Assembly (NCBI GenBank): GCA_025201845.1
Contig: MU603929.1
Span: 63,981-127,980, forward strand
Source of the DNA: Martensiomyces pterosporus
Lineage: Eukaryota > Kickxellomycota > Kickxellomycetes > Kickxellales > Kickxellaceae
DNA: 64,000 nucleotides
Direction: 5' to 3'
The translations under genes and the position numbers were made by a program. The notes below the pieces were generated by a model. The model saw only the letters and a list, made by a program, of their open reading frames with translations, was not told where the DNA came from and made no database searches. How positions within the stretch are numbered: the stretch's first letter is position 1; every line of letters begins with the position of its first letter. Below are positions 36,542 to 55,064 of the stretch, piece by piece.

Positions 36542-38128
36542 TTACTCGCGCGAGATGTCGCGGCCAAAGAAGAACCGCTTGACCCAGTCGGATGCCACCA
36601 GGGTGGTGTTGCGGATGGAGAAGAGCTCATTGAGGTACGCAGACTTCCAGAACCAGAAGGTGGCAATGCCGCCAGCCGTGATGTTGCGGTTGAAGAACGG
36701 CAGGTCGGCAATGGCCTTCTCGCTGCCAATGTACGCCAGCGATCCCTGGGACGAGTACTTGAACGGCCTGCTGATCTCCTCGAGCTTGGCAAAGATGTCC
36801 ACCTTCTCCTGGCCGCTGCTCTCCGCAGCCTCGCCCATGGCTCCCAGCTGGTTCAGTCTGCGAGCGAGCCACTTGCCCTGCTGCGACGCGACCTGCGCCA
36901 GCGGAGCATATCCCGAAAGAGCGCAGTCGCCCAGGGCCCAGATGTCCTTGGCGCCCTTCACACGCAGGTACTCGTCGACGAGGAGGCCGCGGCGGTTGGC
37001 CTGGACATCGGGGAACTGCGCCCTAATCCTGTCGATGACTGGCTGGGCCTTGATGCCAGTCGCCCAGACAAGCAGGCCGTAGGGGATCTCCGACCGCGAT
37101 CCGTCGGGGTTCTGCACGACAAACGACTTCTCGGCGACCTCCTTGACCATGGTGCGCGTCAAAATGGTGATCCTGTTCTCCTTGAACGTGGACTGGGTGT
37201 AATCGATCAGCTTCTTGTCGAACGCCGGCAGGACATTGGGCAGCGCCTCAACAAGCGTGATCCTGACGCGGTTCGCCAGCTCGGGGTACCACTGGGACAG
37301 GTCGTCCTCGAGGAAGTCATGCAGCTCGCCGGCATACTCAATGCCCGTGGGTCCGCCACCGACGACGACCATGTGGAGCAGGCGGTCGCGCTCCTCCTCC
37401 GAGATGTCGCTGAACGAGGCGTTCTCGATCGAGTCCATCAGGCGGCGGCGAATCTTGCGCGCATCGCCCATCTCCTTCAGGAAGCATGCGTGCTCCTCCA
37501 CGCCCGGGGTGCCAAAGGTATTGACTGTGCCGCCGACGCCCACAACCAGGTAGTCGTAGTTGATCCTTACTGGGTCCTCGTCCTGCTTGGTGCCGCTGAT
37601 CAGGGCATCCGAGTCGGTGCGGCGCTCCAGAACAAGCTCCTTCTTCTCCACATCAATGTCTGTGCACTCGGCCTCGTAGAACTTGACCTCCCTGCGCTTG
37701 TGCCGCATCAGCAGCCGGACCGGCTCCATGATGGAGCGGTTCTCGATGGTTCCCACGGTGCAGCTGGGCAGCAGCGGGGTGAAGAGGAAGTAGTTGCGCG
37801 GAGACACCACGACGACGTTGAAGTTCGTCGTGTCGAGGTTCTTCAGAATCGTGGTGGATCCCCAGCCGGTGCCCAAAAGCACAAGAGTCTTCTTCGAGGG
37901 ATCAAAGGGCTCCTGCTCGTCGGGGTTGCGGTTCTTGTACATCAGCCACCCGGTATACGTGAGGGCGCCCAGCGCAGTGCCGTACACGACGCGCTTGAAC
38001 TTGCGCAGACGCGAGGTGCGTGGCTTCTGCTTGCCCGCGGCGTCCTTGAGCGTCGACATGGCCATGCGCTGCGCAGTAGCGCCTGCAGCGCGGGAGAATC
38101 TAACGCTGGCTCTTGTGGCTGCAAACAT
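36542..38128 (-). CDS. Type II (rotenone-insensitive) NADH:ubiquinone oxidoreductase, copy 1
   Basis: 528 residues. Basic presequence-like N-terminus (MFAATRASVRFSRAAG), a short hydrophobic segment near 47-64, then the two-dinucleotide fold: FAD-binding LLGTGWGS at about 85-91 and NAD(P)H-binding VVGGGPTGIEYAGE at about 256-268, a LWALGDCA FAD motif in the C-terminal half, and the membrane-associated C-terminal region (GGIATFWFWKS). Such NDE/NDI enzymes pass electrons from NADH to ubiquinone without pumping protons. The N-terminal helix after the presequence suggests an external-facing (NDE-like) enzyme in the inner mitochondrial membrane. No EF hand is present. A diverged paralogue lies at 51170-52636 on the same strand. 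Confidence 0.94.
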   Translation of the reverse strand: MFAATRASVRFSRAAGATAQRMAMSTLKDAAGKQKPRTSRLRKFKRVVYGTALGALTYTGWLMYKNRNPDEQEPFDPSKKTLVLLGTGWGSTTILKNLDTTNFNVVVVSPRNYFLFTPLLPSCTVGTIENRSIMEPVRLLMRHKRREVKFYEAECTDIDVEKKELVLERRTDSDALISGTKQDEDPVRINYDYLVVGVGGTVNTFGTPGVEEHACFLKEMGDARKIRRRLMDSIENASFSDISEEERDRLLHMVVVGGGPTGIEYAGELHDFLEDDLSQWYPELANRVRITLVEALPNVLPAFDKKLIDYTQSTFKENRITILTRTMVKEVAEKSFVVQNPDGSRSEIPYGLLVWATGIKAQPVIDRIRAQFPDVQANRRGLLVDEYLRVKGAKDIWALGDCALSGYAPLAQVASQQGKWLARRLNQLGAMGEAAESSGQEKVDIFAKLEEISRPFKYSSQGSLAYIGSEKAIADLPFFNRNITAGGIATFWFWKSAYLNELFSIRNTTLVASDWVKRFFFGRDISRE

Positions 38129-40487: not shown

Positions 40488-40495
40488 TATAAAAG
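40488..40495 (+). promoter_or_regulatory. TATA box of the secreted repeat precursor gene
   Basis: TATAAAAG, 127 bp before the ATG at 40622, followed by a pyrimidine-rich leader. This spacing suggests a strongly expressed, regulated gene. Confidence 0.65.
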
Positions 40496-40621: not shown

Positions 40622-41371
40622 ATGCGTACCTTTGCTGCTCTTCTCGTTGCCGCCTCTGCCACCGCCCTTGCGCAGGAGATCGGGTTCTCCGGTGGATCCA
40701 ACGCCGTCACTGGATCCAACGCCATCTCGAACCCCAACGTCAACAACGGCTGGCAATCCGACTCCTCGCTCTTCGCCAGCGGATCTGGTGAGAGCGGCAG
40801 CCTGTTCAACAATGTCGTCGGCTCGTCCTTCTCCACTGTCAACAGCAACTCTGCTGTCAAGGACAACATCATCAACAACCCAACCCAGAGCCACGTTCAG
40901 GGCAACGAGGGCTGGACCGCCAACGGCGACTCAAACAACCTCGGACCTGTCCAAAACCTCTTTGGAGGTGCTGCTGGTGCTGTGCCGTTCTTCAAGCGTG
41001 GCGGTGATGTTGTATTTGCCGACAACCACCACCAAGCCAGTGCCCAGCTCGCTGCGACTGGTGTCCCTGTTGGGCAGTTTGTCCAGCCTGGCTTTGTCAG
41101 CCCCGGGTTTATCCAGCCTGGTGTCTTCAGGAGCGCTGTCTTGAAGCGCAGCGGCGACGTTGTCTTTGCAGACAACCACCACCAGTTAGATGCCGCTGCT
41201 GGGTTCGTTGGGACCGCTGCACCCGTCACTGTTGGATGGTCCGCTCCTGCTGCCCTTCAGTTCGTTGTGCCTGCATTCCAGCCTGTCCTTCAGCAGCCCA
41301 TCGTTTCTCAGCCTCTTGTCGCTGCTCAGCAGCCTGGGCAGAAGGCCACCATCGTCCAGAACCAGGCGTAA
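40622..41371 (+). CDS. Secreted repeat precursor A with Lys-Arg-preceded units (Kex2-type layout)
   Basis: 249 residues: signal peptide MRTFAALLVAASATALA, then a conserved pro-region (NPNVNNGWQSDSS; KDNIINNP; GNEGWTANG), then two units KRGGDVVFADNHHQ (125-138) and KRSGDVVFADNHHQ (175-188), 50 residues apart, each followed by a variable Val/Pro/Gly-rich spacer. The C-terminus is QKATIVQNQA. Lys-Arg before each repeat is the cleavage signal of the Golgi protease Kex2, so the product may be cut into peptides beginning with the D-V-V-F-A core, as in fungal Kex2-processed repeat proteins and pheromone precursors. I do not recognise the peptide. Paralogues are at 54016-54918 and, in short form, 53543-53731. 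There is no GPI or membrane anchor. Confidence 0.85.
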   Translation: MRTFAALLVAASATALAQEIGFSGGSNAVTGSNAISNPNVNNGWQSDSSLFASGSGESGSLFNNVVGSSFSTVNSNSAVKDNIINNPTQSHVQGNEGWTANGDSNNLGPVQNLFGGAAGAVPFFKRGGDVVFADNHHQASAQLAATGVPVGQFVQPGFVSPGFIQPGVFRSAVLKRSGDVVFADNHHQLDAAAGFVGTAAPVTVGWSAPAALQFVVPAFQPVLQQPIVSQPLVAAQQPGQKATIVQNQA

Positions 41372-41732
41372 GCCCAATCCACACCTCTCGTTGAATTCTT
41401 TTTTCACGTTTTTCTTTCTCGAGTGCCGTGCGTTCTGCATACTGGCACCGCCTTTCGGATGCTGCAAGGCCATTTTCTAACTACGTGTCATGGCTACTGA
41501 ATAAACACCACTGCTCATACACTCAAAGCACATACAGTATACCAAAACATCCAGATAGTATTTGGAGCCAGCTCCAAGGTGCATGCCGCTGAGCCTCTTG
41601 GTTTCTTGCTTGGGTTGGCCTGATTTTCACGCTGCTTCTTCTGCTCTTTTCACCGCTGTTTATTTACACTTTCTGCTTGTTTATTTGTATTCCATTTCCC
41701 GCCTTTTGGTTTCTTGGGTGCATTCAAAGGAA
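41372..41732. other. Intergenic: 3' flank of precursor A and TEL1 promoter
   Basis: 361 bp. A poly(A) signal lies at 41500-41505. The TEL1 frame is open upstream of its likely start from 41562, but those codons give a hydrophobic stretch unlike Tel1 and are treated as leader. Confidence 0.5.
41500..41505 (+). terminator. AATAAA poly(A) signal of precursor A
   Basis: Canonical hexamer 129 bp after the stop codon of the secreted precursor. Confidence 0.55.
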
Positions 41733-44700
41733 ATGTCTGGCTCGAGGCATCGTGTGCGCGTTGTTGACAGCGATACCTTGGCAAGCACGACTGGCGCAAG
41801 GTCTGGCGGTGCTGGTGGCGACAATAGTGGCAGCAGCAGTGTAGTCGACAGCCAGCTGGCGCTGTTGGAATCCACAAAGGCAACGGAGAGAGTCCGCGGA
41901 ATCCAGCAATTAGCAGACATTCTCGCCGAAGACACACGTAGTGGAAGAAGCACCAGCATTGTGCAGTCGTTGAGCGAAGCTACTTGGGAACACATAATCT
42001 CATGGACCGCGCGCATTATGATCAAGGAGTCGCAGTCCTTTGTCAACAAATACGGCGAAGAATGGCCCGAAATCTCTGCTTCGGGAAGCAGGCTGAGCAG
42101 TAGGATCCAGACGCAGTACTCCAGCCATGTGCGGCATATTTGGGTGGCCGCCATGCCGTTTCTCTCGGCGAGGCTGGCAAGGTTCTTGGTAAAGCATATC
42201 ACAGAGGCGCTGGCCAACGACCCGTGCCTGTCGCATGTCGTTGGGCTTGATTATGCCAAAACACTGCGTGCCTGGGCGTCGCACTCGCCGCACTTGATGA
42301 ACTGCAAGGATAGCCGTGCTGAGGCTGTTGCTGCCGTGTGCATCCAATATCTCTCGCGATTCAACGCGGTGCCAGAGTCGCAGGCCTCGACAGAGTCCTC
42401 GGCCAACCAGACGATCTTGCCAGGCGATGTGGAGTGTGCAGCCACGCTTCTAGCAGTCGTCAAGGCAGCCAACCCCTCGCGAATGGCTCAGCTGGGCGAC
42501 AGGGTGCTTGATTTCTGCGCCGAGTTTTGCGGCTTCTACGCGAGAGAGAATGCCTGCCACTCGATTGTCTTGGACACCATCAATGCCATCCTGCTTGAAT
42601 TGGCCGAGGAGCAGATGCTTGCAAACTTTGCGCGCACCAAATCCATACTTTCCTGCTGCCTACGGCTGTGGTCAACGCGCTCGATTCACGTCAAGCACTC
42701 GGTGCTCCACAGCATTAGGATCATTACGCGAATTGTCAGCAGCCACATGCTATCAGAGAGGGGCGGAGACCGGGAGGCACTGGAACTTTTGGAGCTCGCT
42801 CTGAAGCACATGACTGCTGGGTCGTGGGACAAATTCAGGTTCATGTCCCTGCCGCGCAGCCTTTTGAGTCTCTGGCCCCTAGTGCGTGGTAGTAATAGCA
42901 CGAGCACGAGCACCAGCAGCCAGGGGTACAACACATGCAGCGGTATTCTTGATTTGGGTGAGTTCTTGCTGCTGCAGTCAATTATTGATCCGTTCCAGAT
43001 GGCGTTTTTCGACACCGTTACCTTCCTTGTCGTCAATCTGCTCAACGTGGATTCACAGCGAGAGGACACGGCTTCGACACACCGGAGAAAGCGCGCACGC
43101 AGGAATGCGCCCACATCGCTCTCACGGCTGCTGGCGACGATGGAGTCGCAAGACGCGGCAGATAAGGCGCGGGGCTCCGCGCAGGTCATCTGGTACGTGC
43201 TGAACTTTTACCCAGATCAAGCGCCGCTCCTCGAGTGCTTCAACTCGGTCGTTTCCCTGCTGAGCCATGGCAGCACGAGTGAGCACGGAGAGCTGGCTGA
43301 GTGGGCGCTTGGTATTCTCCACACCTTGCTTGCTGCAAGCACAGGCAACTGGGAATCGTCTGCGCATTTTCCGCTAGATGCGACAGCTAAGGCTCGCGTT
43401 TGGCAGCATGCAGTAGCCGCTGTGGAAGCTGGGCTTTCTGGATCAGCCAACCTTGCATTTGCTTTGCTCAACAGCACCGACCCTGTTGGATCCAATGATG
43501 ATGTGCACGCGCTGTGTCGTCGGGCTGCCGGTGCGCTGCTCAGGTGCACAAAGAAAAGTGACCCGGATTTCGTGCGGCTTTCGCTCCTCCTAGCCCAGTA
43601 CATGTCGGCCGCTGGGAAACCAAGCGCCGATGCAGCGTCTGTGCCTGGGGTCGCTGCCCAAGCGGTTGCCACGCTCTGCCAGCGGGCTGCTAGTAGGCAG
43701 TGGCCCCTGTCGCTGTTCTCGACTATTGTGAGCCACGTACTTGGATTCGCCAACCAGGAAGGCGTTTTGAACGGAGCCTCCGGTGCGCCCGTGCCTGGCC
43801 CTCACTGGGACTTTGAGCTGAGGTTTGCTCGTGTACTGCAGATGCTGGATGCATTCTCTGTCGATCCAAGAGCATGCCAGAGGCTTGTAGACCGCTCTAT
43901 TGGCAGCCATGCTGAGAAGCGGAATGGCTCTGTGTCTGGCTCCAGTACCATTAGCACCGATTCACCTGTGCTATCCCAGCTATCTATCACCCAGTGGTAC
44001 AGCACGTCGAAGCTTTTGCTAGGATGGATCAAGGGCCAAGTGGAAAGCAAGCATACCCAGAATGGCAGCCAGGATGAAGACCACGACTCCTGGCAGGCAG
44101 TCCCATTCGTGTGCCACACGCTATGGCAAATTGCAGCACATATGAGGTTCGCAGATGCCAGCAGCGACGACACTATTTCGGAGGCCGATCAGCTCACCAA
44201 GGCGTTCTCGCGGCAGCTGGATGCCCTTGTTGCCGATTCTCAGAGCCCTGGCCTGGTCTGCCAGACACTGTCGTTTATTTGCGGGTGGTCAGAGAGCTAC
44301 ACACCGCTGGGAGGACTCGTCGACATTATGCACAGCCTGATATCCATGCTGTTCAATGCCGAGGAGCACGGGTTCGTGTATGAGCTCGCTATGGGCGGTC
44401 TTGGCCAGAGCCCACCCAGCCTTTCTTACTCGGAAAACAGCTACCGCGAGTCGTCAGCACAAGGAGCTATCGAGACGAACCAGAGGTCGCTGGATTGGAG
44501 AGGCAAGGTGGGCTACAGACAGGTGCTGGAATCGCAAATGCTGAGCTCGGCTCATGGCATACATCCAGAGCCCTGGAAGCCATTCTTCAAGGTTCTTGCT
44601 ACGGCAGCACACGCTCACAACGAGCTGCGTCTATATCTTTCCAACAAGCTCGCGGATCTTATCGACTGTCTGGACGATGCACATTTCCTCCCTGCGTGCG

Positions 44701-47700
44701 ATTTTATTGCGCAGTGTGTGCTGCTTTCTTCAGAACCCGCCGACAGCGCGTTACAGACGAGCCTGAAGCAGCGCGCTCTTTCGCTGCTGGACAGCTACAG
44801 CCATTCAGGCCATATGCCAACGCTCTACTGCGTGTTCCGGGTCGTTTCAGCTCTTATCCACACCATTACGCCTGACGAAGAGGCTGCTGACGAGGATTTG
44901 CCGCGGTTCGTTGCGTGGCTAATTTCGGAGAGCAAGAAGAACCGGGTGGATCCGTGCATCGAAATTGATCTTATCAGAACGATGATTGGTCCCTGGGGTT
45001 GCCAAGAAGAAAGCTGCCTGGCCAGATCGCTGGTTGCAAATGGTCTTTCGGCCACACACGTACTCGCTCATCTCACACAAACATCAAGTAGCTTTGCGGT
45101 CAGGCTGGTTGCTGAGGAGCAGCTCGCAATGTGCCAGCTGGCATCGCCGCACCTCCTGCCGAACGGCGGGTTTGGCTACCTAGTGGGGGAAAATCCAGCG
45201 GCTAACGACACGCTTGTGCTGATGACGCGCTATATTGGCTTGGCTGTGCTCATTGCTAGGTCCAAGACCGCTGTGCCTGGTGCAATTGCGATCCTGCTCA
45301 ATCAGATATCACCTAAAGCAGATTGCTCTCCAGAGGCTGCACGTCTATGCCAGGGGCTGCTTTCATGCATCGCGCTGCTGAGCGGGTTCGATGGCATTCG
45401 CCAAATGGTCGCTGAATGTAGGCCGGATATCCTGAACAGCGACGTTGGTGTGGTGAGTCTTGGCATTGAAAGCGCACTGGCTGGAGGCGGGTCGCCAGCC
45501 GATCTGTCTGCGTATCACACGGATGTCGCACTGGAGTGGATGCTACAAGGCGATATCAGCAAGGCAACAGATGCACTTTCTGAGGTCGACCCTCAACACA
45601 AAGATGCGAGTGCCATCAAGCTGCTTTCGCATGCGCTGGTTCAGCAAACCGACGATAACGACCGATATGCCCTAATTCGCGAGGAGCTTCTTGTGCCTTG
45701 CCTCACCACCGCTCGCTTGGAGGATATGATTGCAGAGAAGCCCGAGGAGCTTATCCTTCAGCTCCTTGCTCTCTATCGTCCAGAGCCTGTGTTGGCGGCC
45801 GAGATTGACACGAGCATATCGGCCCCTATAGACGGCGACAAGCCAACGAACATTTTACTGGCGTACTCTCGTCTCAACGCAGCACAGCTCTCGGCAAAGC
45901 TCGTGCAGTGGGGCAGGCGCTACGGACGAGTCTCTATCCAGCAGACGATGGAGTACATCGCGCAAACAAGCGCCGGCACCGCCCTTGACGAATTCCTTAG
46001 CGGCCCGCGCGTTGCGTGGGTTGTGCTTCACATGCAGTCACAGCTGCAGTCAGCACATTTCGACAGCGAGCGGCAGAGGATTCTGTGTGCACTTGGATTC
46101 TTCCTCAGTGTCACAGCGTCGGATGTGGTCAATAGCCCACTGGTGCAAGCGGTGCTGACGCGCATGCTGGTCGACTGCTGGCTATGCAGCGATGGCAGCA
46201 CTGGCGCAATAGCTTGCTACATCATTGCCCTGTTGCTTGACCGCCGATCCGCACCAGCGTCGCCCATCAATGAGATGGTTTCTAGCGTGTGTGTGGGCAT
46301 GCTCGACAAGCTCATTGGAAAGTTTACAGGCAAGGCTGCGACGGATGCTAAACTTCCGCTGCAGTCGCTGGCTTGCCTGCTAAAGGCCGTGCTAGAGATC
46401 CATGGAGATCGGGCTGGATTCGATTCCTGCCAGATATTTATCGGCAGCGAGCTTGAGGACCTGCTCGATTGGAGCACGCTTTCACCTCTCGTCAGGACCA
46501 AAGAAGCGATTCGAGGGTTGGATGATCGGATGGGGCTTGCCGCTGTTGCTGACCAAGCCGCACCATTGCTGTATCTCGAGTACTACTCGGCGACATGCGC
46601 AGAGTTTTTGCTCGAGGCTGCTGAACGGCTGATGCGCCTCGCTTTGCGTCTGACCCCGCAGGATGACGTGGCCACACCGCCCAGTATGAACCCAAAGGAT
46701 GCCCCTGTACAAGTTGATCTGGCGGTAGGCGTAATCAATGTCCTGTCACGGGTCAGGGGCATTGTAGTGAGGCATGTGTGCAAGCTGTCTAGCAAAGGGT
46801 ACGCAAAGAGCCGTGTCACCACAACTCTGCTACGCGTGATCTCGCTACTTTCGGCACTTGAGAAGCCTGTGGGAGACAAGAGCAGCTCGATTGTGGATCA
46901 AGGCGCTGAGTCAGAGGTAAACAGCATGCATTGGCTCATATGCGACGTTGTGTCTAAATCGCAGAGCCAGCAGGCAGTCATGGCGGCTATCAATGTGGCC
47001 ATTAGTGCGCACAAAAGCCCACAGACTCCAGACGCCCACTCGCTGGAAGAGCTGGATGACAAGCAAAAGCAGATACTCCAAGACGTTTCGCTGATGCCGC
47101 CTGTTCATGTCTACGCTCAAAGCAGCCCTGCCCTGACGTGCTTTACAGTGCAGGATCACGAACCACAGGCGCTGAACGATGATCTCTTAGCAGACGTGTG
47201 CCCGCCCAATCTGCCTGCTGGAGAGGCCTTCTCGCGTGTGGTCTGCGCGCTGGCTACCTGGCTCAAGCCCACATCCAGTCTGAGACATGCGATGCCGCTG
47301 ATATTTGCCGACTCGCGTGTTGCCAGCTGTCTAATGCCGCGAATCCTCTGCGAAGTTCTGTGCATGGCGCAGACCGAGACGTGCGCCGAGATATCGGCAT
47401 TTATACTCGATTTCGCATATAACTGGCGACACCAGGCACCTGAAATGGCTCGCGATGTGATTGCCAGGGCCCTGCAAGCGCGCCAGCTTGATTCGCAGTT
47501 TACAGATATTCGTGAGTTTTTCAGCGTGCTTCCACTCGCCCTATTTGAGACGGCTGCGTTGGCCGCTGAACTTGGGATGCCCGAGACTGCGGCGCTCCTG
47601 CTCGAGTACGACTTGTTCTGCGCTGGAGGGGTGCAGCCTGCTGGCGTTAGCGATATCAGCAAGGATGCCAAGGAGCTGCTGCAATCAGTCTACCAAAAGC

Positions 47701-50700
47701 TGGGCAACCAGCCAGCCGCCCAGCTACTTGGCTCTGTGAGCTCCATTGGCGATGTACTGCGCAGATGCCACGATACCTCGAACTGGCAGACGCTTCTGCT
47801 TTACCAGGAGGCAGTGCCCGATGCTGGCCGACCGCAAGTGCTGGGAGCCGAGAACGAGCTGGATATCGGGGACACACTGGTTAGCCTTGGTCTGCTCAAC
47901 GCAGTGCTGCCTGGATCAGCATGGAGCGACCACCAATCAACTGGGACCGGTGCTTCGCAGGCGATGTTTGCTGCATCGTGGCGACTGGCCAGGTGGGATG
48001 TCCCGGCAATGCCACTAGCGCAGCCCAGCGCGCCCTCGGTGTTTTTGGTTCCCGAGCAGAAGCCGGAGGAATCGCTCTACAGCATATTTAAGCTGCGGTC
48101 TCTGGGCCAGCTGTCAGCAGCTAGTGTAGCTGTGCAAGAGTACATGGTCAGCTCAGATGCCGTGAGTGCACTGGCCATCTCCAGCGACCACTTGCGGGAG
48201 GCATGGCCGTGCCAAGCAATAGCGCTTCTTCTCCCGCTAATCACCAGCGACACTAGAGACACCCCAGGCAGCGCCAGGTTTGTGGACGTCAGTCAGATCT
48301 CCGAGTTCATGCTTTCGCAAGCCTGTGGCCACATGCAGGCCGAGAGTTTGGAACCCGTGCACTTGGCGAACCTGACTCTACACGAGATCGCTGTTCGCGA
48401 GGTGATTGCAAAGAAGCGCCAGCCGATGCTCAGCGAGGTGTTTGGGCGGTACAAGGAGGCTGTGCGCTCGGCATGTGCTGTCTCGCGTCTGGCGCGCAAC
48501 TGGCAGAACTCGATGAACCACATATTCCGCCTGCGTTCGATGTCGCAGGCCGCTGGCATCAAAGACGGCAACTTGGAGCCCGAGCTGAAGCTCTGGGAGG
48601 CAGAAACGCTGTGGGATTCGGGGAACCGCACTCTGGCCATAGAGATGCTGCAGTCTCACAAGAACGAGATGGAACGACAGCTGCAGAGTGCCACAGCGCA
48701 AATGAAAGACCGGAGTGGCCATGCGGCGTCCCTTGCGGAGACTGCAGAGATGGAGGCGAGAACAATCCTGGTATCGAGAATCATCCTGACTGTGGGGGAG
48801 TGGTCCGATAAGCAGCGCAAGGAGCGACCGGCGGTTCTGTGGGAAGAGTACTTCAACAAGTCGGCCCAGCTGCTGCAGGGCAGCAGGACGCCCACGACGT
48901 GGACAGGCCGGGCGCTGCATGCCCTGGCAGAATTTTCCGAGCGGCAGTGCGAGGAGCTGACGAGCACCAGGGACAACGAGGCGACTGCTGGGGTGCGCAG
49001 GCAGAAGACCAAGGAGCTCGAAGCCTGCCAGCAAGAGATTGCGCGGGCAACGAATGGCAGCGAGGCGAACAGACTCAAGGGCATTCTTCGTAGGCTTGAG
49101 ATCCAGGTAACAAATGACCAGAAGGAGCTGGCCGAGCTCCGATCGAGTATCGGGGGGTTCCTGCGGTTGGCGATATGGTCGTTTGTGCGGTGTCTGGAGT
49201 GCTCAAACACGTTCGACAACAGCGTGTACTCTTTGGTGTCTCTGATCATGACCCATGCCCATGCGCCCGAGCTAGCGAGCGTTCTGTCGTCGGATTTGAT
49301 GGACGGAGTAGCGAGCCACAAGTTCCTCCCACTTGTACACCAGCTGTGCGCACGGCTGAGCACCGAGGACGACGCCTTCCACCAGACGGTCACTAGGCTG
49401 GTAAGCCGAATGGCAGTGGACTACCCGTACCACACCATGTACCACTTGTTTGCCCTGCGCAACGCCAACCGCACCTCGCCGTCGGCTAGCAGCAGGTCGG
49501 GCGGGCGCAGGAGCGGGCTGGATGCGCTGCAAATTCCAGAGAGCGAAAGGATGGAGCAGAGGCGCAGCGATGCAGCCACTAAGATCCTTGTGGATGTGTC
49601 AGGCCAGAACTCGGATCTGAAGAGCATCGTGCAGGTGGTTGATGAGCTGTGCAACGTGTACATTGAGTTGGCAGTCCATCCGGTTCCTGAGAAGTTTAAG
49701 AGTGGCAAGCTCGAGGGCAGGCTCATCGCTTTTGGAAGCCGCTTGCGCATCGCCAGGCTGATAAAGAACCTGCCGCCAAACATCCCGGTGCTCACAGCCA
49801 TGCCCCAGGCGGATGCGCCGCGCGACTACATGTGCGTCCCGTTTATCAGCTCGCTCTCCGAGGGATACTCGCTTGCAGGCGGCATCAACTTGCCCAAGAT
49901 CGTGCGTGTCCTGGGCACTAATGGGAGGCGGTACAAGCAGCTTGTCAAGGGCAAGGATGACATGCGGCAGGATGCGATCATCGAGCAGCTCTTCCGCGTA
50001 ATCAACCGCTTTATGAGCGCGACTAGGGGAGGCAGCAGTGGTGGCAGTAGTAGTAGTGGCGGCGGTGGTGGTGCATCGCCAACTGCGGGGCTTTCTATCC
50101 GCACATACCAGGTGGTTCCTATGACCAAGCGATGCGGCGTGCTCCAGTGGGTGGACAACACCATGCCCTTTGGCAGCTGGTTCCGCGACAGGGAGACCAG
50201 GTACCGGGGCCACGCCCCTACTGCCAACCAGCTGCGCAGCATCGTGCACAACGTGCACAAGGAGAAAACTGTGACGGCGCAGCAAAAGCTCGATGTCTTC
50301 GACCGCGTGTGTGCACTGGCGCCACCCGTGTTTAGGTTCTTCTTCTACGAGCAGTTCTACAACGCTCAGAGCTGGTTTGAGCACCGCGAGATTTATATCC
50401 GCTCGGCTGCTGTATCGTCGATTGCGGGATGGGTGCTGGGAATTGGCGACCGGCACATGCAGAACATTCTGGTCGACCTGACGACAGCTGAGCTGGTGCA
50501 TATCGATCTGGGCATCGCCTTTGACTTGGGCAAGCTGCTGCCTATCCCTGAGCTGGTGCCATTTAGACTGACGCGCGAGATGGTCGATGGCATGGGCATT
50601 CTGGGGCGCGATGGGACGTTCCGCCACTTCTGCGAGGTGGCACTGAGGGCAATGCGAGAGAATGCGCGCGTTGTCATCACGATTCTCAATGTCCTCAAGG

Positions 50701-51032
50701 TTGACCCGCTGTATATGTGGTCGCTGATCCCGCTGCGGCTGGACAAGATTGATCGCAGCGCCAGCTTGTACATCGATGGGCTGGGGGAGGGCGGATCGCG
50801 CGCTGGCGCACCACCTGGTGGCGACTCGAGTCGCCAGGGCATGCTGCTGGACGGCGCCACGGCGGCAGCGGCTGCTGAAGAGAACAAGGAGGCAGAGCGG
50901 TCTATTCTACACGTTGGCCAGCGACTAGGTGCATCCATCAGTGTTGAGGGCCAGGTTAACGAGCTGATCCAGCAGGCGACCGACCGCAGGTACCTGTCGC
51001 GCATGTTTGAGGGCTGGTGCGCGTGGTGCTAG
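41733..51032 (+). CDS. TEL1: Tel1/ATM checkpoint kinase
   Basis: About 3099 residues in a single 9.3-kb exon. Near the N-terminus lies a TAN-like motif (QLALLESTKATERVRGIQQ, about 41-59), then a long HEAT solenoid, the FAT domain (about 1950-2500) and a PI3K-like kinase domain from about 2690. Key residues: GDRHMQN with Asp2906 and His2908 and HIDLGIAFD with Asp2925. The last 30 residues form a FATC (VNELIQQATDRRYLSRMFEG), closest to ATM rather than ATR, TOR or DNA-PK. Tel1 is recruited to double-strand breaks and telomeres by the Mre11 complex and starts damage signalling. A Gly/Ser run (about 50030-50080) interrupts the kinase N-lobe after INRFM. The start at 41733 (MSGSRHR) is preferred over an upstream ATG at 41562. 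Confidence 0.93.
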   Translation: MSGSRHRVRVVDSDTLASTTGARSGGAGGDNSGSSSVVDSQLALLESTKATERVRGIQQLADILAEDTRSGRSTSIVQSLSEATWEHIISWTARIMIKESQSFVNKYGEEWPEISASGSRLSSRIQTQYSSHVRHIWVAAMPFLSARLARFLVKHITEALANDPCLSHVVGLDYAKTLRAWASHSPHLMNCKDSRAEAVAAVCIQYLSRFNAVPESQASTESSANQTILPGDVECAATLLAVVKAANPSRMAQLGDRVLDFCAEFCGFYARENACHSIVLDTINAILLELAEEQMLANFARTKSILSCCLRLWSTRSIHVKHSVLHSIRIITRIVSSHMLSERGGDREALELLELALKHMTAGSWDKFRFMSLPRSLLSLWPLVRGSNSTSTSTSSQGYNTCSGILDLGEFLLLQSIIDPFQMAFFDTVTFLVVNLLNVDSQREDTASTHRRKRARRNAPTSLSRLLATMESQDAADKARGSAQVIWYVLNFYPDQAPLLECFNSVVSLLSHGSTSEHGELAEWALGILHTLLAASTGNWESSAHFPLDATAKARVWQHAVAAVEAGLSGSANLAFALLNSTDPVGSNDDVHALCRRAAGALLRCTKKSDPDFVRLSLLLAQYMSAAGKPSADAASVPGVAAQAVATLCQRAASRQWPLSLFSTIVSHVLGFANQEGVLNGASGAPVPGPHWDFELRFARVLQMLDAFSVDPRACQRLVDRSIGSHAEKRNGSVSGSSTISTDSPVLSQLSITQWYSTSKLLLGWIKGQVESKHTQNGSQDEDHDSWQAVPFVCHTLWQIAAHMRFADASSDDTISEADQLTKAFSRQLDALVADSQSPGLVCQTLSFICGWSESYTPLGGLVDIMHSLISMLFNAEEHGFVYELAMGGLGQSPPSLSYSENSYRESSAQGAIETNQRSLDWRGKVGYRQVLESQMLSSAHGIHPEPWKPFFKVLATAAHAHNELRLYLSNKLADLIDCLDDAHFLPACDFIAQCVLLSSEPADSALQTSLKQRALSLLDSYSHSGHMPTLYCVFRVVSALIHTITPDEEAADEDLPRFVAWLISESKKNRVDPCIEIDLIRTMIGPWGCQEESCLARSLVANGLSATHVLAHLTQTSSSFAVRLVAEEQLAMCQLASPHLLPNGGFGYLVGENPAANDTLVLMTRYIGLAVLIARSKTAVPGAIAILLNQISPKADCSPEAARLCQGLLSCIALLSGFDGIRQMVAECRPDILNSDVGVVSLGIESALAGGGSPADLSAYHTDVALEWMLQGDISKATDALSEVDPQHKDASAIKLLSHALVQQTDDNDRYALIREELLVPCLTTARLEDMIAEKPEELILQLLALYRPEPVLAAEIDTSISAPIDGDKPTNILLAYSRLNAAQLSAKLVQWGRRYGRVSIQQTMEYIAQTSAGTALDEFLSGPRVAWVVLHMQSQLQSAHFDSERQRILCALGFFLSVTASDVVNSPLVQAVLTRMLVDCWLCSDGSTGAIACYIIALLLDRRSAPASPINEMVSSVCVGMLDKLIGKFTGKAATDAKLPLQSLACLLKAVLEIHGDRAGFDSCQIFIGSELEDLLDWSTLSPLVRTKEAIRGLDDRMGLAAVADQAAPLLYLEYYSATCAEFLLEAAERLMRLALRLTPQDDVATPPSMNPKDAPVQVDLAVGVINVLSRVRGIVVRHVCKLSSKGYAKSRVTTTLLRVISLLSALEKPVGDKSSSIVDQGAESEVNSMHWLICDVVSKSQSQQAVMAAINVAISAHKSPQTPDAHSLEELDDKQKQILQDVSLMPPVHVYAQSSPALTCFTVQDHEPQALNDDLLADVCPPNLPAGEAFSRVVCALATWLKPTSSLRHAMPLIFADSRVASCLMPRILCEVLCMAQTETCAEISAFILDFAYNWRHQAPEMARDVIARALQARQLDSQFTDIREFFSVLPLALFETAALAAELGMPETAALLLEYDLFCAGGVQPAGVSDISKDAKELLQSVYQKLGNQPAAQLLGSVSSIGDVLRRCHDTSNWQTLLLYQEAVPDAGRPQVLGAENELDIGDTLVSLGLLNAVLPGSAWSDHQSTGTGASQAMFAASWRLARWDVPAMPLAQPSAPSVFLVPEQKPEESLYSIFKLRSLGQLSAASVAVQEYMVSSDAVSALAISSDHLREAWPCQAIALLLPLITSDTRDTPGSARFVDVSQISEFMLSQACGHMQAESLEPVHLANLTLHEIAVREVIAKKRQPMLSEVFGRYKEAVRSACAVSRLARNWQNSMNHIFRLRSMSQAAGIKDGNLEPELKLWEAETLWDSGNRTLAIEMLQSHKNEMERQLQSATAQMKDRSGHAASLAETAEMEARTILVSRIILTVGEWSDKQRKERPAVLWEEYFNKSAQLLQGSRTPTTWTGRALHALAEFSERQCEELTSTRDNEATAGVRRQKTKELEACQQEIARATNGSEANRLKGILRRLEIQVTNDQKELAELRSSIGGFLRLAIWSFVRCLECSNTFDNSVYSLVSLIMTHAHAPELASVLSSDLMDGVASHKFLPLVHQLCARLSTEDDAFHQTVTRLVSRMAVDYPYHTMYHLFALRNANRTSPSASSRSGGRRSGLDALQIPESERMEQRRSDAATKILVDVSGQNSDLKSIVQVVDELCNVYIELAVHPVPEKFKSGKLEGRLIAFGSRLRIARLIKNLPPNIPVLTAMPQADAPRDYMCVPFISSLSEGYSLAGGINLPKIVRVLGTNGRRYKQLVKGKDDMRQDAIIEQLFRVINRFMSATRGGSSGGSSSSGGGGGASPTAGLSIRTYQVVPMTKRCGVLQWVDNTMPFGSWFRDRETRYRGHAPTANQLRSIVHNVHKEKTVTAQQKLDVFDRVCALAPPVFRFFFYEQFYNAQSWFEHREIYIRSAAVSSIAGWVLGIGDRHMQNILVDLTTAELVHIDLGIAFDLGKLLPIPELVPFRLTREMVDGMGILGRDGTFRHFCEVALRAMRENARVVITILNVLKVDPLYMWSLIPLRLDKIDRSASLYIDGLGEGGSRAGAPPGGDSSRQGMLLDGATAAAAAEENKEAERSILHVGQRLGASISVEGQVNELIQQATDRRYLSRMFEGWCAWC

Positions 51033-51169
51033 TCAAATGAAGCAGACATGGATAGCGAGGTGTTTTTGCATGAAATCCATGGAAAGAGCTCCGACGAAAT
51101 ATACTCAAAAAAATGCATGTGGGCGAAGCAATGAGAAGAAAAGAGAAATGTCTAGTCGGCCAGCGCATG

Positions 51170-52636
51170 CTAGTCGACGCTGATGGTGCGGCCAAACAGC
51201 GCGCGCCTGAACCAGTCGGTGGCAACCGATGCGCTGCTACGAATGGAGAAGAGCTCCCACAGGCAGTATGACTTCCAGAATAGCGAGGTGAGCGGGCCAC
51301 CAGCAGTGATGTGGTGGCAGAAGAACGGCAGCTCGGCAATGGCCTTTTCGCCGCCGATATAGGCCATGGACCCGTTGGATGAGTACACAAACGGCTTGAC
51401 CCTCTTGTCGACCTGCAAGTAGACGTCTGCCACACTTGCGTCGCTGGGCATTCTGTTCAGAGTCTTGGCGAGCCACTTGCCTTGCTGCGAGGCGACCTGC
51501 GCCAAAGGGGCGTTCTTGGACACGGTGCAGTCACCCAATGCCCAGACGTCCCGAGCGCCCTTGACACGCAGGTAGTCGTCAATGATCAGGCCGCGGCTGT
51601 TTGTCTGTTCCTCGGGCACCTTGGACCGCAGTGTGTGTGCGAACTGGCGAGCGCGGACTCCAGCGGCCCACACAAGCGTTCCGTAGGGGAGCTCTGTCTC
51701 CGTGCCATCGGGGTTGCAGATAACGACGCTGTTCTCCCTTACTTCCTTGACCGTAGTGGCCGTGCGCAGATCAATGCTGTTCTTCCTGAACATATCTTGC
51801 GTGTAGTCCACGAGCCTCTTGTCGAACGAGGGGAGGACGCGGGGCAGGGCCTCGATGAGTGTGATTTTGACCTTGCTCGCCAACTCGGGCATCCACCTCT
51901 TCAGATCCTCGTTGAGAAAGTCATGCAACTCTCCAGCGAACTCGACACCCGTAGGACCACCACCAACAACGACCATGTGAAGCAAGCGGTCGCGCTCAGC
52001 ATCAGACACACTGTCGAAGGACGCCCGCTCGATGGCGTCCTTGAGCCGGCGGCGGATCTTGCTGGCATCACCCATCTCCTTCAAGAAACACGCGTATTTC
52101 TCAACACCCGGAGTGCCAAAGGTATTGTATGTGCCGCCAACGCCTACCACAAGGTAGTCGTAGTTGATACGGGTGGCAGCTGGCGCTTGGCAAGCACCGT
52201 CATCGGTCTGGTCCACGCAGCGCTCGAGGACCAGCTCTTTCTTGCCGACGTCGATGTCGGTGCATTGCGCCTCGTAGAAACGAGCGTCCTTGCCGTGTCT
52301 GCCGACAATGTGGCGAATGGGCTCCATGATAGACCGGCTCTCGGTGGTGCCTACGGTGCAGCTCGGCAAAAGGGGTGTGAACAGGAAGTAGTTGCGTGGA
52401 GACACCACGACGACCTTGTAGTGCCTTGTATCGATATTCTTTAGAATCGTCGTGGAGCCCCAGCCAGTGCCCAGGAGCACCAGCGTCTTCTTCTTGTCGG
52501 TGTGAATGGATTCCCTTGCTGGCATTGCGTATGCGGCCACTTGCTGGTGAATACAGGTGGATACTGGCAGTGTACGCCGAGTTGCGAGGGGCGTGAGTCT
52601 GGCAAGCATTGATTTAACTATATGTGTGAGAGACAT
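51170..52636 (-). CDS. Type II NADH:ubiquinone oxidoreductase, copy 2
   Basis: About 488 residues, strongly similar to the enzyme at 36542-38128 through both nucleotide-binding motifs (LLGTGWGS and VVGGGPTGVEFAGE) and the LWALGDCT motif, so again NADH oxidation feeding ubiquinone. The N-terminus differs: a short basic presequence (MLARLTPLATRRTLPVST) with no obvious following membrane helix, which could mean another side of the inner membrane (NDI-like) or another organelle. The start is 52636, or the ATG at 52609, which gives a more classical presequence; 52810 is unlikely because the TATA box lies inside that extension. The C-terminus ends in Ser-Val-Asp rather than the Ser-Arg-Glu of copy 1. 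Confidence 0.92.
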   Translation of the reverse strand: MSLTHIVKSMLARLTPLATRRTLPVSTCIHQQVAAYAMPARESIHTDKKKTLVLLGTGWGSTTILKNIDTRHYKVVVVSPRNYFLFTPLLPSCTVGTTESRSIMEPIRHIVGRHGKDARFYEAQCTDIDVGKKELVLERCVDQTDDGACQAPAATRINYDYLVVGVGGTYNTFGTPGVEKYACFLKEMGDASKIRRRLKDAIERASFDSVSDAERDRLLHMVVVGGGPTGVEFAGELHDFLNEDLKRWMPELASKVKITLIEALPRVLPSFDKRLVDYTQDMFRKNSIDLRTATTVKEVRENSVVICNPDGTETELPYGTLVWAAGVRARQFAHTLRSKVPEEQTNSRGLIIDDYLRVKGARDVWALGDCTVSKNAPLAQVASQQGKWLAKTLNRMPSDASVADVYLQVDKRVKPFVYSSNGSMAYIGGEKAIAELPFFCHHITAGGPLTSLFWKSYCLWELFSIRSSASVATDWFRRALFGRTISVD

Positions 52637-52732
52637 ATGCTGAATAGTAGTATGAAATCGCGGCTGTGGCTGGTGTGGTAAAGAACGGTGGATGTAGCGA
52701 GTCCAGCTCCGGAAAGGAGACTCAAATGCCCA

Positions 52733-52741
52733 CTTTATATA
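52733..52741 (-). promoter_or_regulatory. TATA box of NDH2 copy 2
   Basis: TATATAAAG on the minus strand, about 100 bp before the ATG at 52636. Confidence 0.6.
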
Positions 52742-53491
52742 CCCACCGCTTGGCCATATATGTGGGGGATATTTAGCCACTGCTTCCTTCTTTTGACTGC
52801 CAGCACGCAACGGTGCTCAACATTACCTTAAGCCTTGACATAATGGATTGGGGCAAACGGCTACAAGGCGGAAAAATGCACTCGGAAATATTCGGAGCGA
52901 CTGCACCCCGCGCATAATTCCGCTTACCAAAAGGAAGAGCCACAAGAGCAGCAGCTTCCTGGGAGCACAAAAGTTACGCGTTAGAGGGCCGGACATCCTA
53001 AATTATCCTGCTCCGCTCAGATGACCAAGTGTGGGGTAAAGGGCATGGGTGCAAATGGAGCATTGGTTCGCGCAGTCCAAGAGCCTGTTGACCGTGGATA
53101 ATTGTATGCAATGGCACTCGTGCGTGCGCATTAGCACACGCAGGTGCGCTCACCATCGGCGCTGGCAATATCCTGCTGCCATCCCTTTCTTCCGCCGGCA
53201 TATGCGCACAATTGCAATGTACGGGACGGTTTTACTGGTGCAAATTAGCGCTCCTCGCATGAGTTTGCAGCTGCTCTGCGTGGAACAGCATAGTACCCGC
53301 TATTGCACCACCCTAGCCGGTATGGCCACTTAATTGGCAGTGTTCACCGAGTCCATTCAGCATGCACTGCTTGGAAATTGCCCGTCCCTTCCACATGCAG
53401 CGTTGTTCCTTCAAGCCTCTCCATTACCTAGGTGCTTTGAGTGTGCTGCACATCCAACGCAGCATATTCTGTGACTTTGGGTATGGATATT

Positions 53492-53497
53492 TTTATT
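53492..53497 (-). terminator. AATAAA poly(A) signal of the short secreted gene
   Basis: Canonical hexamer on the minus strand, about 46 bp after the stop at 53543. Confidence 0.5.
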
Positions 53498-53542
53498 TAG
53501 CACTTGGCAAAAAGGGCCAATGGCAAAGCAACATGTTGGCGA

Positions 53543-53731
53543 TTACCTGGCAGCTGCTGGTCTCACTTTTTCGGCACGGACGATGAGCGAAGAGTCGACT
53601 TGGAACCCGTTGTTGATGTTTAGCGCAGTGATGTCGCTCAATCCGCCGGCCACAAGAGCTCCCCCTACATTGCTGATACGCTGGCCAAAGACTGCTGAAG
53701 CGAAGACGAGAATGGGAGCGAGGATATGCAT
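53543..53731 (-). CDS. Short secreted paralogue (62 residues) of the repeat-precursor family
   Basis: 62 residues with a signal peptide (MHILAPILVFASAVFG) and then a segment aligning with the start of the mature part of precursors A and B: here LNINNGFQVDSSLIV, there HPNVNNGWQSDSSFFV. It ends soon after, before any Lys-Arg unit. It has its own TATA element about 72 bp upstream and an AATAAA 46 bp downstream, so it may be a functional mini-gene and not simple debris. A GTGAGA or GTAATC near its end could be a splice donor, which would make this a first exon; I found no convincing acceptor exon carrying repeat units. It lies 284 bp downstream of precursor B on the same strand. Confidence 0.6.
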   Translation of the reverse strand: MHILAPILVFASAVFGQRISNVGGALVAGGLSDITALNINNGFQVDSSLIVRAEKVRPAAAR

Positions 53732-53802
53732 GGGTTAAGAAGCAGCCTGTCAAGATGAGTAGCTAGTAGATGTCCAAGTGGTTCACTGAGCGCACAGCCG
53801 CC

Positions 53803-53808
53803 TTATAA
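53803..53808 (-). promoter_or_regulatory. TATA-like element of the short secreted gene
   Basis: TTATAA, about 72 bp upstream of the ATG at 53731. Confidence 0.45.
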
Positions 53809-53927
53809 ACGCGTTTGGCCAAGTAGCGGCGGCGTGCACCATCAGCTCCTTTTGGACAGATACACTGCATTTTTGTATGTGGCGCTGCTGAAGCAGAACA
53901 ATGTGCTGCTGCATACCGAAGCATGCA

Positions 53928-53933
53928 TTTATT
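53928..53933 (-). terminator. AATAAA poly(A) signal of precursor B
   Basis: Canonical hexamer on the minus strand about 83 bp after the stop at 54016. Confidence 0.5.
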
Positions 53934-54015
53934 AACCAGGACAAGAAAGGACGCGAATCAACGCCCTCCATCCAAGCCAGCTGCGAATAAAAATAATAAG
54001 CAAAACAAGAACCAT

Positions 54016-54918
54016 TTAAGCCTGGTTCTGGATGATGGTGGCCTTCTGTGCAGCCTCCTGTGCTTGGGCAGCGGGAGCACCAGCAACAGGCTCCACGATA
54101 GGCTGAGCCACAACGGGCTGGACGAGCTGGAGAGGAGAAACAAAAGGCTGCACAACAGACCACCCAAACAAAAACGGAGCAGCAGCATCCGAAACAAATC
54201 CAGCAGCGGCATCAACCTGGTGGTGGTTGTTCGCAAAGACGATGTCACCAGCACGCTTGAACAATCCAGGGTAAGCGAAAGGGGCGACAGGAACTCCACC
54301 AGCACCCGAAAGACGCGCGCTGGTCTGGTGGTGGCTGTCAGCAAAGACAACATCGCCGCTGCGCTTCAGTACAGCGCCGCCAATGACACCAGGATGGACA
54401 AATCCAGGCTGGACAAACGAAGGACCGACGAACTGAGTCACGGGAACCGCGCCTGCTGCCGAAAACTGGGCGCTAGCTTGGTGGTGGTTGTCGGCGAAAA
54501 CAACATCGCCGCCGCGCTTGAACACAGGAATGGCCGAAGCAGCGCGACGGACACCAAAGGTGTTCTCGGCAGGACCCATGTTGTTGCCGTTGCCATTGGC
54601 AGTCCACCCATCATTGCCCGAAACTGAGGCCAGCGATGGGTTGTTGATGATGTTGTCCTTGGAAGCGCTGTTGGAGTTGACCGAAGTGAACGATGAGCCA
54701 AAGACATTGTTGAACAGACTGCCTCCGGAATCTACACTGCTGCCCTGGCCGTCGCCAGAGTTGCCGACAAAGAAAGATGAGTCGCTTTGCCAGCCGTTGT
54801 TGACATTGGGGTGCGAGATCGCGCTGGGCCCGCTGGCAACATTGGCACCTGCAGTAAATCCAATTTCCTGGGCAAAGGCGACCGAGGTGAGGACGAGAAG
54901 AATGGCAGCAGTGTGCAT
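54016..54918 (-). CDS. Secreted repeat precursor B with three Lys-Arg units
   Basis: 300 residues, clear paralogue of the precursor at 40622-41371: signal peptide (MHTAAILLVLTSVAFA), the same pro-region (HPNVNNGWQSDSS; KDNIINNP; GNDGWTANG), then KRGGDVVFADNHHQ (134-147), KRSGDVVFADSHHQ (185-198) and KRAGDIVFANNHHQ (221-234). The tail is QKATIIQNQA. Spacers between units vary while the unit itself is nearly fixed, as expected if the unit is the functional peptide and Lys-Arg the processing site. One more unit than precursor A implies gain or loss of a block. The His-His pair could bind metal; a mating or signalling peptide is the other obvious idea. Function unknown. Confidence 0.85.
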   Translation of the reverse strand: MHTAAILLVLTSVAFAQEIGFTAGANVASGPSAISHPNVNNGWQSDSSFFVGNSGDGQGSSVDSGGSLFNNVFGSSFTSVNSNSASKDNIINNPSLASVSGNDGWTANGNGNNMGPAENTFGVRRAASAIPVFKRGGDVVFADNHHQASAQFSAAGAVPVTQFVGPSFVQPGFVHPGVIGGAVLKRSGDVVFADSHHQTSARLSGAGGVPVAPFAYPGLFKRAGDIVFANNHHQVDAAAGFVSDAAAPFLFGWSVVQPFVSPLQLVQPVVAQPIVEPVAGAPAAQAQEAAQKATIIQNQA

Positions 54919-55057: not shown

Positions 55058-55064
55058 CTTTATA
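55058..55064 (-). promoter_or_regulatory. TATA box of precursor B
   Basis: TATAAAG in a CATATAAAGTGG context, about 140 bp upstream of the ATG at 54918. The ATATAAAGTG core also occurs in the NDH2 copy 2 promoter. Confidence 0.6.

Follow-up and report, generated by a model that had tools for sequence, protein, structure and literature searches.

Rep1 of Ustilago maydis is described as a protein whose Kex2 sites yield amphipathic peptides of 35-53 residues (PMC4617103). KEPs are defined in Umemura 2020 by a signal peptide and at least three tandem repeats of at least 8 amino acids, none over 100 amino acids, between KR, KK, RK or RR, and 185 KEPs are reported there from 16 Zoopagomycota strains (PMC7329392). 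In Le Marquer 2019 the definition asks for at least four fragments after cutting at KR or RR, with a motif in at least three of them and with motifs making up at least 15% of the length (PMC6339444).

Here we describe genes A and B, which lie in the window, a stretch of 64,000 nucleotides from Martensiomyces pterosporus (Kickxellales, Kickxellomycotina), whose genome assembly comprises 17.4 Mb in 216 contigs. Judged from their sequences, the two genes belong to an undescribed family of secreted-type proteins found so far in Kickxellales only, which is compared here with the published descriptions of KEPs and Rep1. The family resembles Rep1 in being of the secreted type and in having predicted Kex2 sites between repeats, and its predicted peptides are 30-60 residues long against 35-53, the amphipathicity of the family being judged by composition only. 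Unlike the family, Rep1 has twelve repeats, and the passages that describe it mention no conserved N-terminal domain, the comparison being one of descriptions and not of sequences. With KEPs the family shares a signal-peptide-like start, repeats preceded by KR or RR and predicted secreted peptides, but here a large conserved N-terminal domain and a C-terminal tail frame the repeats, and three or more core units are present in only 8 of the 68 non-fragment members. Applied by hand, the definition of Umemura leaves out both genes, as gene A has two units and gene B has three with no site past the last. By that of Le Marquer gene A, with three fragments, is left out, and gene B, with five fragments of which three bear units, would probably pass, as judged from the definition.

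Results

The original prediction of two secreted-type genes with a common layout was borne out. Each frame runs uninterrupted from ATG to stop, both proteins begin with what looks by eye like a signal peptide, continue through a region of about 100 residues and end in QKATI(V/I)QNQA, and the units, of the pattern KR-x-GD(V/I)VFA(D/N)(N/S)HHQ, number two in gene A and three in gene B (Table 1). In full, the units read KRGGDVVFADNHHQ and KRSGDVVFADNHHQ in gene A and KRGGDVVFADNHHQ, KRSGDVVFADSHHQ and KRAGDIVFANNHHQ in gene B, and the two proteins match each other with an E value of 3.6e-72. The truncated third member downstream of gene B shows no continuation in the three downstream frames of the same strand. 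Between genes A and B the window holds a TEL1-like PIKK (41562-51032, plus strand) and an NDH2-type dehydrogenase (51170-52810, minus strand), one of two such dehydrogenase genes near the family genes, the other being at 36542-38128 (minus strand). A TATA-box-like sequence is also seen upstream of the ATG of gene B (55058-55064, minus strand), and the distances in the two genes are 130-145 bases. The database protein P0073 (113 amino acids) is identical to residues 1-113 of gene A (window positions 40622-40960) and ends before the units; truncated gene models of this kind may conceal repeats from surveys.

Table 1. Features of the two genes and their surroundings, in window positions
Feature	Position	Strand	Basis
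Gene A, secreted-type precursor, 249 aa, two units	40622..41371	+	Open frame from ATG to stop; homologues
Gene A, signal-peptide-like start, residues 1-17, ALA before Gln18	40622..40672	+	By eye from sequence
Gene A, conserved N-terminal domain, about residues 18-116, Asn/Gly/Ser-rich, without Cys	40673..40969	+	56-sequence alignment; composition of 43 relatives
Gene A, unit 1, KR + GGDVVFADNHHQ, residues 125-138	40994..41035	+	Sequence
Gene A, unit 2, KR + SGDVVFADNHHQ, residues 175-188	41144..41185	+	Sequence
Gene A, conserved tail QKATIVQNQA, residues 240-249	41339..41368	+	Family tail type
Gene B, secreted-type precursor, 300 aa, three units	54016..54918	-	Open frame; homologues
Gene B, unit 1, KRGGDVVFADNHHQ, residues 134-147	54478..54519	-	Sequence
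Gene B, unit 2, KRSGDVVFADSHHQ, residues 185-198	54325..54366	-	Sequence
Gene B, unit 3, KRAGDIVFANNHHQ, residues 221-234	54217..54258	-	Sequence
Gene B, conserved tail QKATIIQNQA, residues 291-300	54019..54048	-	Sequence; family tail type
Third, truncated family member, 63-aa frame just downstream of gene B	53543..53734	-	51 residues (53579-53731) match the first 51 of B, E 5.8e-5
TATA-box-like TATAAAAG, about 130 bases upstream of the gene A ATG	40488..40495	+	By eye from sequence

At E up to 0.001, the genome yielded ten matches to protein A, which correspond to nine genes on contigs C1 (A and B), C70, C106 (two), C79 (two), C129 and C37; with B at E up to 10 twelve matches were obtained, including the 51-residue relic in the window. 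Three protein searches, which detect relatives through common short exact words and one of which scored the best 7997 candidates, returned 57, 40 and 45 proteins in overlapping sets that include the window's own. Among the matches found, named homologues come only from the four Kickxellales genera Coemansia, Linderina, Dipsacomyces and Martensiomyces, and the homologues shown are called hypothetical or uncharacterized protein. The first count of units used 58 proteins and later counts used P0001-P0072; counts of 68 leave out the fragments P0043, P0052, P0068 and P0071 and keep P0070, which is partial according to its source. Throughout, the family sequences are related and not independent.

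Fifteen of the 68 non-fragment members have the N-terminal domain and no core unit. A related subfamily (hhalign against the family, 98.8%, E 6e-17) consists of two N-terminal domains with a basic pair between them, and the members read have neither units nor a QNQA tail. Such two-domain relatives lie at L012:2324-3073 (plus strand) and L013:2275-2991 (minus strand), with kin in Coemansia and Dipsacomyces. P0033, on contig C70 (L009:3010-3657, minus strand), has a single unit and, in place of the QNQA tail, the C-terminal end IQAHWY. One paralogue on C106 (L010:118-774, minus strand) carries KR-EPxx(L/F) repeats (KREPGILKREPNVFKREPVVFKR) ahead of the N-terminal domain, with the X-P starts of the STE13 signature, and one on C79 (L011:2049-3011, minus strand) carries SAHRR/RRSAH repeats with X-A starts after the domain, followed by a long RPEPAP-type proline-rich repeat. 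These two paralogues, with their X-P or X-A starts, point to more than one origin of dibasic-flanked repeats within the family.

The locus tags of two family genes differ by three in each of three Coemansia genomes (GGI07_001760/1763, LPJ53_000303/306 and GGF46_000129/132), as if two genes stood between them. A tree of 68 N-terminal domains, in which columns are few and many forks are unresolved, clusters B with GGI07_001760 and LPJ53_000303 (support 81/74), places GGF46_000132 outside this group and sets A apart from GGI07_001763 and LPJ53_000306. As the tree groups B, but not A or GGF46_000132, with the Coemansia pair members, an old A/B gene pair conserved across genera is only suggested.

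Conservation was scored on an alignment of 56 proteins as information per column, over the columns filled in at least half of the rows. The order of parts is a signal-like start, the N-terminal domain, a dibasic pair, a unit, a spacer, further units and the tail. Gln18 is invariant (56/56) and the N-terminal domain has many invariant Asn and Gly residues. The means are 3.24 bits per column for the N-terminal domain, 3.25 for the first dibasic pair with its unit, 2.98 for the second and 3.52 for the tail; for the spacers they are 2.15 and 2.09. As its per-column conservation equals that of the N-terminal domain, the unit is, on this alignment, more than a spacer. The tail, Q(N/S)(Q/K/H)(A/V), forms the C-terminal end in 59 of the 68 non-fragment proteins.

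Nucleotide changes agreed with the earlier view that the unit is almost invariant and the spacers drift. Six units of three Martensiomyces genes (15 pairs) gave a pS of 0.61 against a pN of 0.056, the nonsynonymous count being bounded by the choice of units by motif, and no further degenerate copies of the unit were seen in those three proteins. Between A and B, pN was 0.23 in the spacer and 0.40 in the C-spacer, at a pS of about 0.6. MAFFT placed unit 2 of A across units 2 and 3 of B, which does not affect the all-pairs unit count. In the Coemansia proteins P0019, P0026, P0032 and P0036 both units read ADVHRQ; the copies within one protein therefore changed together, and gene conversion or a shared partner could be the cause.

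The equal conservation of unit and domain bears on the proposal that the N-terminal domain is the working part, and that the unit region is an extension, processed off or tethering, which aids its secretion or assembly. This reading draws on the members that have no core unit, on the fact that the N-terminal domain defines the family and on the two-domain subfamily, which has a basic pair between its domains and, in the members read, lacks units. It leaves the unit conserved per column as closely as the domain itself, and we consider it unlikely.

Still less can be said for His-His metal binding by the peptides. The His pair, earlier suggested as a metal binder, is kept in unit 1 in 41 (first His) and 48 (second His) of the 56 aligned proteins, but Asp (51) and Phe (49) are better kept; Val stands at 49 and Gln at 42. 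In the four Coemansia proteins DVHRQ occupies both units and another group reads NGYHG, so that the His pair is lost while the Asp and Phe of the head stay. Metal-binding peptides are therefore very improbable products of the family.

The basic pair ahead of the unit was found throughout. With units chosen by GD(V/I)xF alone, KR or RR precedes all 92 units of 58 proteins, at a spacing of one residue in 88 (41 KR, 47 RR) and of zero in 4, and all 96 units of 72 proteins. With units chosen by their xHHQ end the pair is in register in 66 of 67, the exception being P0035 with KR one place later. A basic pair also closes the N-terminal domain in every one of the 56 aligned proteins, 53 having it in register and 3 one place away. 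In 1000 permutations of the residues after position 20 that left the units in place, a dibasic pair preceded a mean of 0.33 and a maximum of 4 of the 92 units, which excludes chance. Of the claim that Lys-Arg stands before the units, the basic pair is thus kept in the homologues, whereas KR itself is not invariant and may be RR. Altogether the 58 proteins have 125 dibasic sites after residue 20, of which 92 precede a core unit; the remaining 33 include, by eye, nine ahead of clear variants of the unit and six KK pairs close to the tail.

Residues around the pair are also restricted. P4 is V, F, L, I or Y at all 96 units of the 72 proteins. In a wider set of 106 sites, chosen by a pattern that requires the basic pair and a loose head and so cannot show conservation of those places, P4 is hydrophobic in 106 against a background of 30% (V/L/I in 68, F/Y in 38), and in 90 the pair is followed by Ser, Gly, Asp or Asn. 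P3, with which kexin is said to make no contact, is rich in hydrophobic residues as well (73/106), so some of the P4 signal may have a different cause. Kexin is reported to favour aliphatic residues such as Leu at P4 (PMC6258133, PMC8528282), and cut sites are reported to have an excess of acidic or small residues at P1', P2' and P4' (PMC2515848). The family sites have Arg at P1, Lys or Arg at P2, a hydrophobic P4 (aromatic in 38/106) and a small or acidic P1'. A single S8 protease in the genome carries a P domain in its reading frame, and its best match is Kexin 2id4 (E 4.2e-150). The genome also encodes S10 carboxypeptidases and DPPIV-type proteins, which we take to be the classes of Kex1 and Ste13. 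On the strength of the sites, the family precursors are very probably cut by Kex2 at KR/RR.

An intact structural wall protein, with dibasic pairs kept for reasons other than cutting, would suit the Asn/Gly/Ser- and Val/Ala/Pro-rich composition; it would not account for the way in which conserved P4, P2 and P1 and small P1'/P2' residues jointly resemble kexin sites. PIR wall proteins, which have the motif Q-[IV]-x-D-G-Q-[IVP]-Q and a Cys-rich C-terminus, are likewise secreted, with repeats and a Kex2 site. Unlike them, none of 72 family proteins has the PIR motif and none has a Cys after residue 20, hence no Cys-rich C-terminus. Pfam gave no family for A and a single match for B (E 0.058) below its cut-off. 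The expectation that the genes belong to no known structural wall-protein family is upheld by these searches, and we find an uncut wall protein distinctly unlikely. Hydrophobins have eight conserved Cys, and the lack of Cys after residue 20 in all 72 proteins rules out hydrophobin identity. A hydrophobin search of the genome gave no matches and was uninformative, as control genomes were equally silent; the search for UstYa/DUF3328, a mark of dikaritin-type RiPPs, gave no matches in the genome and the same silence in controls.

Cutting at KR/RR would leave pieces of 107, 48 and 73 residues from gene A and of 107, 8, 49, 34 and 78 residues from gene B, and the 48 internal peptides measured across the family have 30-60 residues. 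No basic pair directly follows HHQ in the family proteins, so Kex2 alone would release these internal peptides and a long C-terminal peptide, and not a 14-mer. Thus the prediction of Kex2-released peptides stands as to its repeated and conserved Kex2-like sites and falls as to the 14-mer: on the predicted cuts, the 14-residue unit is the conserved head of longer peptides. In 43 proteins the fragments past the N-terminal domain cut contain 17.8% Val, 17.0% Ala and 10.1% Pro, with a mean GRAVY of +0.24. On an AGGRESCAN-like scale, aggregation hot spots cover 27% of residues in the 48 internal peptides against 31% in their own shuffles; as there is no excess, residue order shows no sign of selection for aggregation.

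With the same cutting the products might be secreted signals that are recognised by their head, such as a peptide for density sensing or development. x-GDVVFADNHHQ would be the free N-terminus of every unit-bearing product and is conserved per column like the N-terminal domain, and some fungal Kex2-processed repeat proteins, for example alpha-pheromone precursors, are described as signals (PMC6339444). Ascomycete alpha-pheromone precursors are, like the family, secreted, with dibasic sites ahead of repeated peptides, but the likeness to them that had been proposed lacks further support. Of the 133 KR/RR sites of 68 proteins, 92 are followed by Gly at position 2, 12 by Ala and 3 by Pro, so that STE13-type starts are exceptional; position 2 is Gly at all units of A and B, and the extra RR site of B has one Ala-Ala start. 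The family's predicted products are longer, since with no dibasic site to close the head they would extend over 30-60 residues into a drifting tail, and the head hardly differs from genus to genus. Such sameness between genera is not typical of mating pheromones. A genome search for STE2 gave no matches and, control genomes being equally silent, was uninformative. We regard a signalling role as doubtful, and a pheromone role as less likely than a coat.

Searches for known folds and for literature gave little. Profiles of the family and of the two-domain subfamily had no PDB matches at E up to 1. NCBIfam searches over 56 members gave seven one-member matches (best E 0.0011), which were taken as chance, and Pfam over 42 two-domain members gave seven weak families (best E 0.031). 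AlphaFold models of A (56 sequences; mean pLDDT 51, pTM 0.21) and of the two-domain relative P0074 (42 sequences; mean pLDDT 37, pTM 0.21) were unusable; our impression is that the N-terminal domain has a beta-solenoid look. The head sequence was absent from a full-text literature search, and Kickxellales literature on secretome, hydrophobin, pheromone and Kex2 had no title on the family among the matches listed.

Discussion

We propose that genes A and B encode secreted polyproteins that would be cut by Kex2 and whose products would assemble on a surface. After removal of the signal peptide from both precursors, as we infer, the resident kexin would cut behind each KR or RR in the secretory pathway, a strongly supported step. 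Three kinds of product are predicted: a Cys-free, Asn/Gly/Ser-rich N-terminal domain of about 105 residues; internal peptides of 30-60 residues, with the x-GDVVFADNHHQ head and a tail rich in Val, Ala, Pro, Gln and Phe; and a C-terminal peptide that begins with this head and finishes in ATIVQNQA. The trailing basic pair would probably be trimmed by a carboxypeptidase. The N-terminal domain and the peptides may then assemble on the hyphal or spore surface, as do the Rep1 repellents of Ustilago maydis, with the fixed head and tail as putative assembly contacts and the drifting spacers as the surface-active part. Taken as a whole, this scheme seems to us plausible, if somewhat short of probable.

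The coat on the fungal surface, as the function that we prefer, is put forward more tentatively still. It is suggested by the size of the peptides, their Val/Ala/Pro-rich tails, the lack of Cys and the precedent of Rep1; the low number of repeats, 1-3 against the twelve of Rep1, is a point against it. A coat specific to Kickxellales and unrelated to hydrophobins or repellents, in which an Asn/Gly/Ser-rich scaffold domain and Kex2-released hydrophobic peptides from one precursor, their head almost constant across the order, would co-assemble on hyphae or spores, appears to us rather unlikely.

For the role of the peptides, which share a conserved front end, a surface coat is a reasonable guess. 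If our reading is true, strong selection acts on unnamed peptides that fungi of at least four Kickxellales genera secrete, with several such genes per genome in Martensiomyces, where nine were found. Sixty of the 68 precursors fall below the three-repeat cut-off of the published KEP surveys, and the x-GDVVFADNHHQ head offers a direct handle for finding the peptides. The family would thereby give access to the biology of peptides or surfaces in a lineage with little molecular work of this kind among the matches listed.
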